Source: Zhaonella formicivorans
GTDB lineage: Bacteria > Bacillota > DUOV01 > Zhaonellaceae
DNA: 64,000 bases
Direction: 5' to 3'
Assembly (NCBI RefSeq): GCF_004353525.1
Contig: NZ_CP085524.1
Location: forward strand, 2,266,142-2,330,141
How positions within the stretch are numbered: the first letter of the stretch is position 1; each line of letters starts with the position of its first letter. This document shows, in pieces, positions 14,513-18,806 of this stretch. The notes below the pieces were generated by a model. It was not told the origin of the DNA and did not search any database. It worked only from the letters and a program-made list of their open reading frames with translations. The position numbers were made by a program, and so were the translations under genes.

Positions 14513-15055
14513 CTATGCGTTAGAAGCCTTCATCTTCTTCTTTATGGCAAATATTTCTCTTTCGTTCTGCTTTTCTTTATCTATTAAGTAATCAAGGTCT
14601 AAAGATATTTTATCGAGCATTTCAGTATGTGCAAATACAGTCCTGGCAATCGTTTCTGTTTGATTATTAAGATCTTGAAATTTTTGATTAGCCTCTTTTC
14701 TAAATTCAGCCAGGCCTTCTTCCAGATTAGCTTGTCTTGCCTCCAGTTTTCCAAAGCCTTCTTCTAGTTTAGCTTGTCTTGCTTCCAGTTTTCCAAAGCC
14801 TTCTTCTAGTTTAGCTTGTCTTGCTTCCAGTTTTCCAAAGCCTTCTTCTAGTTTAGCTTGTCTTGCCTCCAGTTTTCCAAAGCCTTCTTCTAGTTTAGCT
14901 TGTCTTGCTTCCAGTTTTCCAAAGCCTTCTTCTAGTTTAGCTTGTCTTGCCTCCAGTTTTCCAAAGCCTTCTTTTAGTTCTTGTTGCCCTTGGTCTAAGG
15001 AATTTAATTTTTGAAGTATTTGTTTTAAAATATCCTCCATTTCCTCCACCCCCAC
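14513..15055 (-). CDS. Coiled-coil protein with six 14-residue repeats
   Basis: 180 residues. The centre has six near-identical 14-residue repeats (EEGFGKLEARQAKL), each exactly two heptads, so a long regular coiled coil is expected. The C-terminus (about 110-180) is also charged and helical. Start is uncertain: the GTG at 15055 or the ATG five codons later, preceded by GGGGGTGGAGG. An IS lies directly upstream (15065-16907) and has cut the gene off from a good promoter now at 16913-16941. Function not recognised; it resembles helical proteins often found singly in Peptococcaceae accessory regions. Confidence 0.6.
   Translation of the reverse strand: MGVEEMEDILKQILQKLNSLDQGQQELKEGFGKLEARQAKLEEGFGKLEARQAKLEEGFGKLEARQAKLEEGFGKLEARQAKLEEGFGKLEARQAKLEEGFGKLEARQANLEEGLAEFRKEANQKFQDLNNQTETIARTVFAHTEMLDKISLDLDYLIDKEKQNEREIFAIKKKMKASNA
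14727..14980. repeat. Six tandem copies of a 42-bp unit inside the coiled-coil gene
   Basis: The unit contains GCTTGTCTTGCCTCCAG and TTTTCCAAAGCCTTC; copies differ mainly by C/T at a synonymous site. High identity between units indicates recent expansion or gene conversion, so repeat number may vary between strains. Confidence 0.85.
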
Positions 15056-15056
15056 G

Positions 15057-15064
15057 CAAACATT
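15057..15064. repeat. 8-bp target-site duplication, left copy (CAAACATT)
   Basis: Identical to 16908-16915 on the other side of the IS. Confidence 0.8.
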
Positions 15065-15142
15065 CGTAGTGTTAATTAATTTACACCAAAATAGATTCTA
15101 AAGTCTTATATATCGGGGGTTTCAAGTTTTTTTACAATAAAA

Positions 15143-15232
15143 AACAATAACACCCCCGTTTTTGGTATAATTGAGTCGTTCAAAACAACAATCCACCAAA
15201 AGGAGAGTGTTATTGTTGAACTCAATTATACC
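15143..15232 (+). promoter_or_regulatory. Interleaved inverted repeats around the transposase start
   Basis: Two perfect inverted repeats alternate: AACAATAACAC (15143-15153) with GTGTTATTGTT (15207-15217), and GGTATAATTGAGT (15164-15176) with ACTCAATTATACC (15220-15232). The order A-B-A'-B' cannot form two nested hairpins at once; it gives alternative folds or a pseudoknot. A' covers the TTG start codons and lies just after AAAAGGAG, so pairing A-A' would hide the start in transcripts that enter from outside. TATAAT inside B may be the element's own -10. Confidence 0.7.
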
Positions 15233-16649
15233 ATTTTTGATACTATACAATCAATTTTTACTTAAACAAATTCGCCAGTTACTTTTGTTTATCGTTAAAA
15301 ATATTCCCTTAAAAACTCCTAAACAGGATATCACCAGCCCGAAGTATCGTAAGCTTACTGTGGACAGGCTCCCCATTATTAAACAGCCTGAAAAACTTGA
15401 CTACAAGCAGCTGCTTAACGATTACAAGTCTAAGCATGGTAAAGAGCTTAAACCTGTTAAGTCCCGTGGGAAAAACCCTGTTTCTCCCGATGTTGTTTGC
15501 CACCGTTGCGGCGCCCCTCATACATACCTCTACGACAATACAGGAGGCCGTGGTCAGCTTTTATGCAAAGTCTGCGGGCTAAGGTTCAACAAAGATAAGA
15601 AGGACTTTAAAATCGGTGCACTTACTTGCCCTTATTGTGGCAGAATCCTTGAGAAAAAGAAGGAGCGCAAGCAATTTAATATCCACAAGTGTACGAACAA
15701 GAAATGTCCTTTTTATCTTCAGTCCCTTAAAAACCTTTCTCCGGAAGACCTGGAAGAATACAAGAAAGATAAGCATAAATTTAAGCTACACTACATCTAC
15801 CGCGAGTTCACTGTCGACTTTTTTAAGGTCGATTTAAACAGTATGCCTAAAGGATCAGTCAATTTTACTTTTCGTCACTTTTCTCCTCACATTCTTGGTC
15901 TTTGCCTGACCTATCTTGTAAACCTTGGGCTGTCCACACGGGCTACTTCCAGGGCCCTTTGGGAGATCCACGGCGTTAAAATCTCTCATGTTATGGTCAG
16001 TAAATATGCCAAAACTGCTGCCGCTTTGGTTAAACCTTACGTTGATAATTTTGATTACAAACCCACAAACTACCTGGCTGCTGATGAAACCTACGTTAAG
16101 GTCAGAGGCATCAAGCATTATGTCTGGTTTATTATGGATGCACTCAAAAAATCTATCTTGGGCTATTGTGTATCTGATACAAGGGATGTAGGTCCTTGTA
16201 TCCTGGCTATGCGTATGGCTTTTGCTAAGTTTAAAGATTTCCCCGCTCAAGCCCTAAAGTTTGTTGCTGATGGCTACTCTGCCTACAAGCTTGCACAGCA
16301 GCAGTTCATGCTTAAAGACATGGATTTTAACCTTACGCAGGTATTCGGACTCACCAATGATGATCCTGTTTCGGAAGAATATCGCTGGCTTAAGCAAATT
16401 ATTGAACGCCTTAACAGGACCTTTAAATTCTCCTATCAGGTGACAAACGGCTATGGTAGTGGGGAAGGCTCAAATACCCATGTGTCACTTTTTGTAGCCT
16501 ATTACAACTTCCTGCGCCCACACTCCTATACTTACTGGCAGCCACTAAACTCTATTCCGGAACTTGAGTCTATCCCAAACATGCCTGCTAAATGGCAGAA
16601 GCTTATTGAATTATCACAGCAGCTTATCCTGTCACAGCAAACACCATAG
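15213..16649 (+). CDS. DDE transposase with zinc ribbons (IS6/IS240-like)
   Basis: About 478 residues from TTG at 15213 or 15216, both preceded by AAAAGGAG. The N-terminal third has Cys4 zinc ribbons (CHRCG...CKVCG; CPYCG...CTNKKC). The catalytic part shows D in LAADETYVKVRG, D in KFVADGYSAY and E in IIERLNRTFK, followed by FVAYYNFLRPH, the layout of the IS240/IS6 DDE domain. It should cut and join the element's ends. The gene is intact, so the IS may be active. The long N-terminal zinc-ribbon region is larger than in standard IS6 transposases. Confidence 0.85.
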   Translation: MLNSIIPFLILYNQFLLKQIRQLLLFIVKNIPLKTPKQDITSPKYRKLTVDRLPIIKQPEKLDYKQLLNDYKSKHGKELKPVKSRGKNPVSPDVVCHRCGAPHTYLYDNTGGRGQLLCKVCGLRFNKDKKDFKIGALTCPYCGRILEKKKERKQFNIHKCTNKKCPFYLQSLKNLSPEDLEEYKKDKHKFKLHYIYREFTVDFFKVDLNSMPKGSVNFTFRHFSPHILGLCLTYLVNLGLSTRATSRALWEIHGVKISHVMVSKYAKTAAALVKPYVDNFDYKPTNYLAADETYVKVRGIKHYVWFIMDALKKSILGYCVSDTRDVGPCILAMRMAFAKFKDFPAQALKFVADGYSAYKLAQQQFMLKDMDFNLTQVFGLTNDDPVSEEYRWLKQIIERLNRTFKFSYQVTNGYGSGEGSNTHVSLFVAYYNFLRPHSYTYWQPLNSIPELESIPNMPAKWQKLIELSQQLILSQQTP

Positions 16650-16670
16650 AACAGGCGGTAGCACCCTTAA

Positions 16671-16796
16671 TCCTTCAACCTCTTATCTGCCCTTAAACAT
16701 GCGGTTCAAAGACTGTCAAATGCCTTTCTTCGAAGGCAATGACCTCTTGACAGGCTTTGAATCCGCATTGTTATGCTCTTCATAGAGGTTGGAGGT
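16671..16796. repeat. Long imperfect hairpin after the transposase stop
   Basis: Arms extend from the centre TGCCTT/AAGGCA (16721-16738) through CTGTCAA/TTGACAG, TTCAAAG/CTTTGAA and ATGCGG/CCGCAT out to CAACCTCT/AGAGGTTG. It may end transcription of the transposase, block transcription from the right, or be an end-recognition structure. Confidence 0.65.
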
Positions 16797-16907
16797 GTTT
16801 TGTTTTACTGTTCTTCTGGGCTATCTCGTTTTTCAGGTGACATTTTGGGTTTAGTCTGTCCCATATACTCCTTAAACTGCATTTTTCATAAGTTAGTTAA
16901 CACTATC

Positions 16908-16915
16908 CAAACATT
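16908..16915. repeat. 8-bp target-site duplication, right copy (CAAACATT)
   Basis: Matches 15057-15064. Confidence 0.8.
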
Positions 16916-16941
16916 ATACTATTTCCGGAATTATCCATCAA
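16913..16941 (-). promoter_or_regulatory. Probable sigma-A promoter displaced from the coiled-coil gene by the IS
   Basis: On the minus strand TTGATG (16941-16936), a 17-base spacer and TATAAT (16918-16913). Removing the IS and one target copy places this promoter immediately upstream of the gene now ending its 5' side at 15055. It now reads into the right end of the IS. Confidence 0.6.
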
Positions 16942-17004
16942 GAAAAGTAAGGTGGGGAGAACAAAACCGCTTGGCGCGATGGCTGTGGTAACTTTCCTAG
17001 TAAC

Positions 17005-17130
17005 AAAATTAAATAAAAAGAGAAAAAGTATGCCCTTTTTGTGGTATTGTTTAATCGCCAATCCAAACAAAACAGAAAGGAGCATACTTTTCTTTTATGA
17101 TTATACCATTTGTTAAGATACAAATATAAA
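17005..17130 (+). mobile_element. Relic of the left end of a related insertion sequence
   Basis: The stretch repeats the layout of the IS start at 15.15 kb: AAAAGTATGC (17024-17033) pairs with GCATACTTTT (17082-17091), GGTAT (17043) with ATACC (17103), AAAGGAG at the same place, then an ATG (17097) reading MIIPFVKIQI before a stop. The complete IS reads SIIPFLILYNQ at that place. The rest of the element is gone. Confidence 0.65.
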
Positions 17131-17325
17131 TATTATAAAAGCCGACCCCCTCCTGATTTTGATGCAATAGAATCACAAAGCATTAAGTGGGGAGGGGGGA
17201 AATATGCCCAAAACAGGGTCTTTTTACACATCTAGTAGCCCGTTCCAATAAAGTTGCAAATAATAAAATATTCAGTCAGCGCCTATTGATAAAGAATCAA
17301 GTAGATATTCTCCAATTTTAGGGGG
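17131..17325. other. Non-coding stretch between IS relic and DUF2442 3' half
   Basis: About 195 bp with a C/G-rich inverted pair (CCCCCTCC near 17145, GGGGAGGGGGG near 17192). No gene seen. Confidence 0.3.
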
Positions 17326-17579
17326 TCAGCCCGTCAATATGCGATATCTTTTTTCATATAAGACCTCCGGGTCAATATCAGCTTGATTAGACCATTCAAT
17401 ACTATCAAAACTAACTCTGACCGATTTAAATTTTTTCTCATCCTTAAGCTCTTTAAATATACCTTTATCTATCCTGAAAATTAAACGACCCTAAAAACAG
17501 GCAAAAAACAAGACCTATATAACCAGCTTGCATTTCCCATATATTGGGTGCAACCCGGTATCTACTGATGTATATGTTA

Positions 17580-18806
17580 TTAAGCTACCTCTTCGACCGT
17601 AACCTTGTATCCTAAAGATTCTAGCTTCTTGATAGACTGTTTTACTACCGTTTGACGCTTGCGTTCTTCATAATAGTTAGGACCAAGTTCAATATAAGGC
17701 TGTCTTTTCTTAAGGATGTGATAGGCGATGATAAGAATGCTATGGGCAACAGCTAAGGACGCCCGGTTTGCTCCTCTTCTGGCCGCGATACGGTGATACT
17801 GGGACGCTAAATACGTATCTTTTGTGCGGGACGCTGCTCGGGCTGCTTCAACTAAAGCACTTCGTAACTTTTGGTTGCCCTTCTTGGCTTTGCCAGACTT
17901 TCGTTTACCGGCACTTTCGTTGTTACCTGGAGCTACTCCAGCCCATGAACATAAGTGGGCGGCAGAGGGGAACTGATCCATATTTGTACCTGCTTCAGCC
18001 AAGATTTGTTCAGCGGTACGTCTTCCCACTCCGGGTATAGTGTCCAATAACTCCAGGTCTTCTTCAAAAGGGAGCATTCGTGCCTTTACTTCTTCATCCA
18101 GTTCAGCGATTGTTTTATCCAAGAAGTCAATATGCTTTAGTTGCTTAGCAAGCATCAGTTTTTGATGAGACCCTATTAAACCATTAAGGGCTCTTTGAAG
18201 TTCTTCTTTCTTCTTTTTCAGCTTACCCTTAGCCAACTCAGCGAGAATCTCAGGGTCTTCTTGCCCTTGAATCATAGCCTCAATCATATCCCGTCCAGAT
18301 TTGCCCAAGACATCACGTGCCACAGAAGAAAGTTTTATATTGGCCCCTTCTAAAACCTTTTGTATCCGGTTTATTTCCCGCGCTCTTTCCTCAATCAGGC
18401 TTCGCCGGTACCGGATAAGTTCCCGCAACTCTCTTTGTTCGCGAGAGGGAATATAACTGCCTTGCAACAAGCCATGTTGTAACAATCCTGCAATCCACTC
18501 GGCATCTTTGACATCTGTTTTACGTCCCGGCACATTCTTGATGTGTTTAGCATTCACCACCATAACGTTGATTTCTTCCAATTCCAGAAGGTTGTAAATC
18601 GGTTTCCAGTAAGAAGCGGTACTTTCCATCGCCACATGAGTACAGCCTTTGCTTTTGAGCCAGTCCACTAAAGAGATAAGGTCATCGGTCATGGTTGAAA
18701 AGGTACGGATTTCTTTCCCTTCGGGGGTGATGGTGCAGGCGACGACGTTCTTCTTATGAACGTCTAAGCCGCAGCAATGAGTGTAGAGAACATCCACAAG
18801 TATCAT
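17580..18806 (-). CDS. IS110-family transposase (DEDD)
   Basis: 408 residues. The RuvC-like N-terminal domain has GLDVHKKNVVACTI (first D), MESTASYW (E) and PGRKTDVKDAEWIAGLL (last two D). A central coiled region leads to the C-terminal Transposase_20 domain with DTIPGVGRRTAEQILAE and CSWAGVAPGNNESAGKRK, which holds the serine used in strand exchange. Full length and without frameshift, so probably functional. Confidence 0.95.
   Translation of the reverse strand: MILVDVLYTHCCGLDVHKKNVVACTITPEGKEIRTFSTMTDDLISLVDWLKSKGCTHVAMESTASYWKPIYNLLELEEINVMVVNAKHIKNVPGRKTDVKDAEWIAGLLQHGLLQGSYIPSREQRELRELIRYRRSLIEERAREINRIQKVLEGANIKLSSVARDVLGKSGRDMIEAMIQGQEDPEILAELAKGKLKKKKEELQRALNGLIGSHQKLMLAKQLKHIDFLDKTIAELDEEVKARMLPFEEDLELLDTIPGVGRRTAEQILAEAGTNMDQFPSAAHLCSWAGVAPGNNESAGKRKSGKAKKGNQKLRSALVEAARAASRTKDTYLASQYHRIAARRGANRASLAVAHSILIIAYHILKKRQPYIELGPNYYEERKRQTVVKQSIKKLESLGYKVTVEEVA

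Follow-up and report, generated by a model that had tools for sequence, protein, structure and literature searches.

Antisense control of insertion sequences (ISs) has already been described for IS10, IS30, IS200 and ISPpu9 (PMC8450116). In IS10, the translation initiation region is complementary to the first 35 of the 69 nt of RNA-OUT (PMC5006887). For the IS6 family, one account states that the control of transposase expression is little known and calls it surprising that transposition of IS6100 rises behind a strong promoter (PMC7986276). The family includes clades of long elements from Clostridia (clade VIII in PMC6807381, clade i in PMC7986276), with members such as ISHahy6, ISHco2 and ISTet2, and the passages that describe these clades in the two papers mention neither an antisense RNA nor a leader structure. 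In the open-licence PMC literature, we found no report of antisense control in IS6-like or IS91-like elements. Here we describe the left end of a complete IS6-like element in Zhaonella formicivorans, which lies in a stretch of 64,000 nt (contig NZ_CP085524.1, positions 2,266,142 to 2,330,141; hereafter the window, whose own coordinates are used throughout). Two inverted repeats, formed by arms A and A' and by arms B and B', are interleaved around the ribosome site of the transposase gene (Table 1), at the positions that a sequence-only reading of the window had given. A:A' covaries between relatives and probably encodes a small antisense hairpin RNA that keeps the element's own transposase low, in the style of RNA-OUT.

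Relatives were collected by one scan of GTDB genomes (15 loci), by genome searches (6/398, 5/299, 2/2 and, in the order of Clostridium oryzae, 39/225) and from plasmids (11 records, 6 taken); the viral side gave one contig only, and the phage collection searched gave no match. From these loci 107 leaders were cut, 61 of which were left under 93% identity, and removal of L094, the leader of which was misplaced, gave the set of 60 used below. Not counted were L090 and L119, which have no leader, L020, which lies too near a contig end and is almost the same as L019, and loci without the N-terminus. The transposases behind the 60 leaders are 34-100% identical to the query protein. Most leaders share one order of parts: an A-run, arm A, a C-run, a -10-like sequence, an A/C-rich leader, the Shine-Dalgarno sequence, arm A', the start codon and arm B'. 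The mRNA leader has a mean A/C content of 77%. Long IS6-like elements with the covarying signal occur in Clostridia, Geobacillus and Lactobacillaceae.

The 20-nt arms A and A' are 85% complementary, and include the cores AACAATAACAC (15143-15153) and GTGTTATTGTT (15207-15217). Pairing was compared between cognate and swapped arms without aligning the arms, swaps being made between leaders less than 50% identical; the mean pairing energy was -18.2 kcal/mol for cognate arms and -9.0 kcal/mol for swapped ones. As a control for relatedness, own and swapped pairing were contrasted in 30 path-disjoint leaf pairs of a coding-sequence tree. The cognate arms were favoured in 19 of the 22 informative pairs (sign p 4e-4, Wilcoxon p 1.3e-4, mean gain 4.55 kcal/mol), and in 300 random pairings this fraction had a median of 0.84, with p<0.05 in 97%. 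The same contrasts were null for control arms (A0:A' 11/25, A:B' 12/21, A0:B' 7/19), where A0 is the upstream partner of A in a further hairpin (Table 1).

An RNA alignment, made by sequence alone, gave a second view of the same signal. It contains 34 of the 60 leaders, hand-picked for diversity among members with antisense signals (although L027 has no A-run of at least 5 and L073 no promoter by the criteria given below), and the pair counts describe these 34 only. RNAalifold predicted 10 pairs, 6 of them with compensatory changes, and all eight A:A' core pairs have changed on both sides. Core cells pair in 87.9% of cases versus 76.8% after shuffling, and none of 500 shuffles reaches any of five measures. 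Sliding the core helix lowers all of these measures, the slid helices pairing in 28-71%. The A:A' pairing matters, and it covaries.

The argument of the sequence-only reading, that pairing is kept while the sequence changes, thus holds for A:A' but does not carry over to the second repeat. B and B' are 14 nt long and 100% complementary; however, their contrasts came to 9/17, no set among the 300 random pairings had p<0.05, and B:B' was rejected as an independently proven RNA helix. Its complementarity would largely be produced by the -10 boxes of two facing promoters by themselves, as set out below, though on inspection it runs beyond the -10 in many members. B:B' looks compensated between some clades, for example between L025 and L081.

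On the minus strand, a predicted antisense promoter within the first transposase codons would start transcription at about 15218, at the outer end of A'. The first ~41 nt of the predicted RNA (15218-15178) are complementary to the mRNA leader, the Shine-Dalgarno sequence and the start codon, if the sense transcript starts where the promoter spacing suggests. The minus-strand segment 15136-15218 is predicted to form a single hairpin that leaves a U-rich tail unpaired (-30.4 kcal/mol, z -6.67); the A-run that precedes A on the plus strand is, on the minus strand, a U-tract after A. Across the family, the antisense promoter has a mean score of 9.43/12 versus 8.30 after synonymous recoding, and exceeds its own synonymous null mean in 52/60 members (16/21 representatives, p 0.0013).

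Counting a promoter where at least 8/12 positions match and the -10 lies 8-9 nt from the start codon, we found that promoter and A-run occur together. Both are present in 46 of the 60 leaders, the promoter only in 2, the run only in 2 and neither in 10 (Fisher p 5e-8); for the 21 representatives the corresponding numbers are 11, 2, 1 and 7 (p 0.002). In 46 of the 48 promoter-bearing members, the RNA folds with its 5' end paired just before the U-tract, at a mean length of 83 nt. Of the two strands, the minus strand has the better fold in 59/60 leaders and the lower z in 45/60 (-4.75 vs -3.55). That the hairpin loop falls at the sense start in 60/60 leaders is largely true by construction of the segments, and this observation was not used.

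These features suggest a mechanism with two convergent promoters at the left end of the IS. The sense promoter, with its extended -10 inside B, would give the transposase mRNA; its -10 has at least 4/6 matches in 58/60 relatives, with TG ahead in 43/60. The antisense promoter, with its -10 inside B' and its -35 deeper in the first codons, would give a leftward small RNA that ends at the U-tract, with its 5' arm copied from A', its loop and upper stem from the mRNA leader and its 3' arm from A. We infer that this RNA is made, that it pairs with the transposase mRNA over the ribosome site and start codon and that it represses translation; the block would grow with copy number, as for IS10 RNA-OUT. 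In this scheme, the inverted repeat straddles the transposase promoter because the antisense 3' arm sits upstream of the sense start. As a by-product, the arms would fold back in transcripts that enter from outside, and the start region of such transcripts would be harder to open.

Several observations weigh against the antisense RNA. A promoter scan finds one promoter where 1.1 are expected in shuffled sequence, and the antisense -10 and -35 lie within coding sequence, with a per-row synonymous p of at most 0.05 in only 14/60 members. Ten members (L034, L036, L037, L100-L102, L104-L106 and L115) have no recognisable antisense promoter or A-run and still hold A:A' at -9.0 to -24.3 kcal/mol, so that the hairpin can persist without a recognised antisense promoter; in L113 most of the A:A' pairing is gone (-7.4 kcal/mol). 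The wobble pairs in the A:A' arms do not settle the strand: A.C pairs, which are wobbles on the minus strand only, outnumber G.T pairs by 141 to 41, but the nearly equal ratio in non-cognate arms (966:318) shows that this excess is mostly composition, and we rejected it as proof of an antisense strand. Finally, the similar leader at 17.02-17.11 kb, which is described below, folds slightly better on the plus strand (-27.3 kcal/mol vs -23.7 on the minus strand). Mild support for the antisense strand comes from the wobble count per row within the core, where G.T is halved (0.12 vs 0.24) and A.C is unchanged (0.75 vs 0.79); in a second core-wobble count, 8 of the 34 rows were left out as out of register.

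Two variants among these members have arrangements of their own. In L100-L102, L104-L106 and L115, A:A' has the form AACTTGC.../...GCAAG, B' is absent and arm A contains a TTGCCA-like sense -35. In L113, a perfect inverted copy of A0 takes the place of arm A and forms a terminator-like hairpin ahead of the transposase promoter.

Table 1. Features at the left end of the IS6-like element and at the neighbouring leader (window coordinates)
Feature	Position	Strand	Remarks
Arm A	15143-15162	+	on the minus strand, 3' arm of the predicted antisense RNA
Arm A'	15198-15217	+	covers Shine-Dalgarno sequence 15199-15205; on the minus strand, 5' arm of the predicted antisense RNA
Arm B, TGGTATAATTGAGT	15163-15176	+	holds extended -10 (TGG TATAAT, 15163-15171) of transposase promoter
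Arm B', ACTCAATTATACCA	15220-15233	+	on the minus strand, holds -10 of predicted antisense promoter
Expected sense transcription start	15178	+	from promoter spacing, 7 nt past -10
A0:A hairpin	15114-15158	+	terminator-like (G/C base, then U5); seen in sense-strand fold
Predicted antisense promoter, TTGATT-18-TATAAT, TG before -10	15225-15254	-	10/12 matches; consensus match only
Predicted antisense RNA, ~80 nt	15137-15218	-	5' arm A', loop, 3' arm A, U-tract
Complete IS6-like IS, 1843 bp	15066-16908	+	6 near-identical genomic copies; ends from 8-bp target duplications of 6/6 copies
Target duplication CAAACATT, left copy	15058-15065		right copy directly after 16908
Left terminal inverted repeat	15067-15083	+	partner 16889-16905; 17 nt, 88% complementary
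Transposase, 477 amino acids	15216-16649	+	TTG start most likely 15216 (or 15213); N-terminal zinc-ribbon-like region and DDE domain
Probable left end and leader of IS91-like element	16956-17129	+	arms AAAAGTATGC (17024-17033) and GCATACTTTT (17082-17091); Y2_Tnp and integrase domains in relatives
Leader peptide MIIPFVKIQI	17097-17129	+	
Predicted antisense RNA of the neighbouring leader	17012-17093	-	fold -23.1 kcal/mol, z -4.84

The most serious alternative is that the arms act on the sense strand only. The sequence-only reading assumed this strand, and missed the antisense promoter and the U-tract, which make the hairpin RNA-OUT-like; it proposed that the arms stop translation from outside transcripts, much as in IS10 and IS50. 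On this view, outside transcripts would include A and B, and their folding with A' and B' would make the ribosome site and start codon inaccessible, whereas the element's own transcripts would start after B and remain open. A and B do lie upstream of the expected sense start, and the energies go in the proposed direction: opening the region from -16 to +16 costs 15.6 kcal/mol in read-through transcripts versus 8.1 in own transcripts (59/60 leaders), and the read-through cost falls to 9.6 with shuffled upstream sequence (58/60) and to 11.5 with the upstream sequence of another member (57/60). The wobbles of B:B' are also biased towards the plus strand, with 25 G.T against 10 A.C (16 against 5 among representatives). 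However, the probability that the Shine-Dalgarno sequence is unpaired is the same in read-through and own transcripts (0.42 and 0.42; 0.35 when shuffled), and the sense fold in the window favours A0:A plus B:B' over A:A'. A sense-only function would also give no reason for the antisense promoter, for the joint presence of this promoter and the U-tract or for the better fold of the minus strand. As a full account of the arms we consider it unlikely, and protection against read-through is, on these modelled energies, a plausible second function beside the antisense RNA.

The sense-strand fold itself is stable (z -6.1 against dinucleotide shuffles for the IS leader), and its minimum-energy form contains A0:A plus B:B'. 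The A0:A hairpin could stop incoming transcription; its contrasts are borderline (17/25, p 0.054 / 0.02), and a terminator scan of 15050-15300 found none, this hairpin included. The interleaved order had also suggested a pseudoknot. A pseudoknot with both full helices was rejected because linkers of 2 nt (A'-B') and 0 nt (A-B) appear too short to cross a 20-bp helix, and at minimum energy the IS forms A0:A together with B:B', the neighbouring leader A:A'. A search of Rfam with the window gave only three eukaryotic families at E<1, far under their gathering scores, and the loci of 8 relatives gave 0 matches at the gathering score.

A much less probable alternative is that the minus-strand hairpin and U-tract are a mere intrinsic terminator for transcription leaving the IS, with the promoter a by-product of the codons. 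In its favour, the stem is followed by a U-tract, and the promoter-like hexamers overlap conserved codons; on the other hand, synonymous recoding lowers the promoter score, in 48/60 members the -10 keeps a distance of 8-9 nt to the start codon and immediately precedes the hairpin, and promoter and U-tract are lost together. A loop of this length is also unusual in a terminator. It is hardly credible that the repeats act as DNA, as paired operators to which the transposase or some host protein binds. B and B' do repeat one sequence in inverted orientation at a distance of 43 nt, but the arm sequences vary freely from member to member and stay complementary, which would not be expected of a fixed protein site.

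With the antisense hairpin RNA as the preferred explanation of A:A', we turn to the element that carries it. The 8-bp target duplications are perfect in 6/6 genomic copies. The arms are internal, and a role for A, A', B and B' as terminal inverted repeats was rejected, since the IS ends elsewhere (15066 and 16908). The transposase matches Pfam DDE_Tnp_IS240 at 37.5 bits, which passes the cut-off of 27, but reaches only 72.5 bits against NCBIfam IS6, under the cut-off of 125, and for this reason we call the element IS6-like. CxxC motifs can be read in the protein, and a match to Zn_Ribbon_TF is sub-threshold. By its 8-bp duplications, short terminal repeats and N-terminus, the IS is similar to the long IS6-group elements of Clostridia.

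The genomic copies differ in a few places. Three of the six (L003, L004 and L006) share a 1-nt deletion in the T6 run at 15820-15825, which splits the transposase frame, and each of them has its own target duplication; this points either to movement of defective copies or to a frame restored by slippage. The copies are otherwise nearly identical except for five clustered substitutions in L006 (window equivalents 15507-15515) and three in L005 (16290-16292), which look as if they came from local template switching. A solo right end of the IS, 54 bp long, is present elsewhere in the genome (L007, genome 989958-990011). Close beside the insertion point of the IS in the window, an open reading frame of 42-nt repeats with coiled-coil-like character occupies 14513-15055 of the minus strand.

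The leader at 17.02-17.11 kb had been taken for a relic of the same IS, with the same order of arms and with a different A and A' that again pair. Its arms do lie within a 16-nt, 88% complementary pair (17024-17039 / 17076-17091), and its minimum-energy fold contains A:A' (z -5.5 against dinucleotide shuffles); of B:B', however, only 6 bp can be read from the sequence (TGGTAT/ATACCA). An origin from an IS6 element was rejected, because the relatives of this leader precede tyrosine-recombinase and Y2_Tnp genes; its most likely identity is that of the left end of an element of the IS91-like type. In a DNA search of 398 genomes, relatives were found at 83% identity over 98 nt (G020), 76% (G197) and 81% (G135); the search lists 43 genomes, many with short, weak matches. 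The good relatives follow a left end like GAAGAACGAAATCGCT-GCGATAGCTT, parts of which can be made out in the window, and are followed by a short leader peptide (10-19 amino acids) and then by a tyrosine-recombinase N-terminal domain or integrase SAM domain. In L146, the C-terminal part of Y2_Tnp (2.9e-13) lies just downstream of the leader. The Y2_Tnp and integrase matches come from degraded or contig-end copies rather than intact elements, and a plasmid search with the integrase fragment found none. Next to this leader in the window are a 47-bp stretch (17284-17330) that recurs once in the genome at 91% (L045) and an IS110-family transposase (17580-18806, minus strand).

Seven IS91-like leaders could be compared with one another and with the IS6-like set. 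Cognate arms pair at -23.3 kcal/mol versus -16.1 for non-cognate arms, although the cognate arms rank first among all pairings in just 3/7, several of the leaders being close relatives. In 7/7 the minus strand forms one long hairpin near a U-rich end, and it is the more stable strand in 5/7, the exceptions being the leader in the window and L150. A profile of the 60 IS6-like leaders scores 7/7 IS91-like leaders at 6.6-22.7 bits, where the best of 700 shuffled decoys scores 3.3; a shared consensus of promoter and ribosome site may contribute to these scores. On this comparison, one leader design appears to occur in two transposon types. We tentatively suggest, as a possibility that we hold with some doubt, that facing promoters with pairing -10 boxes around a self-limiting antisense hairpin RNA form a portable module, common by descent or exchange to two unrelated transposon chemistries, those of IS6-like (DDE) elements and of IS91-like (HUH/Y2) elements that carry a tyrosine recombinase.

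Among known systems, the comparison with IS10 made by the sequence-only reading proved apt, though on the other strand: the position of the predicted promoter, the hairpin with its U-tract and the complementarity to the initiation region all match the anatomy of RNA-OUT. In both cases, a small antisense RNA lies opposite the transposase start, here with ~80 nt predicted, ~41 of them complementary; the RNA of IS10 has been demonstrated experimentally, whereas the present one is a prediction, and the likeness is one of design rather than the outcome of a sequence-relation search. IS10 belongs to a different DDE family, and the 3' arm of its antisense hairpin lies upstream of the sense start, as in this IS. 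A difference is that the two -10 boxes of this IS are complementary to each other.

Like clades VIII and i, which are described as having a zinc finger and an extra N-terminal part, ~450 amino acids, 8-bp duplications and ~1.7 kb, in Clostridia and relatives (PMC6807381, PMC7986276), this IS is long and encodes a zinc-ribbon-like N-terminal region, but its 477 amino acids, 1843 bp and score under the NCBIfam IS6 cut-off differ, and it is likened to them by these features rather than by a tree including named ISfinder members. IS200 and ISPpu9 also combine an antisense small RNA against the leader with folding of the leader; in ISPpu9, however, the antisense RNA appears to raise expression, and the mRNA leader has 244 nt (PMC8450116). 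The leader of this IS has ~38 nt, and its arms extend upstream of the mRNA start. The IS91-like elements share the leader design, yet have an unrelated transposase chemistry and carry the leader before a peptide of 10-19 amino acids.

The conserved, covarying antisense signal thus offers a concrete, testable control mechanism for long IS6-like elements, to which it would extend control in the style of RNA-OUT. It also raises the question of whether such modules move between transposon types, and a shared module would go beyond the antisense control known from IS10 and the other elements.

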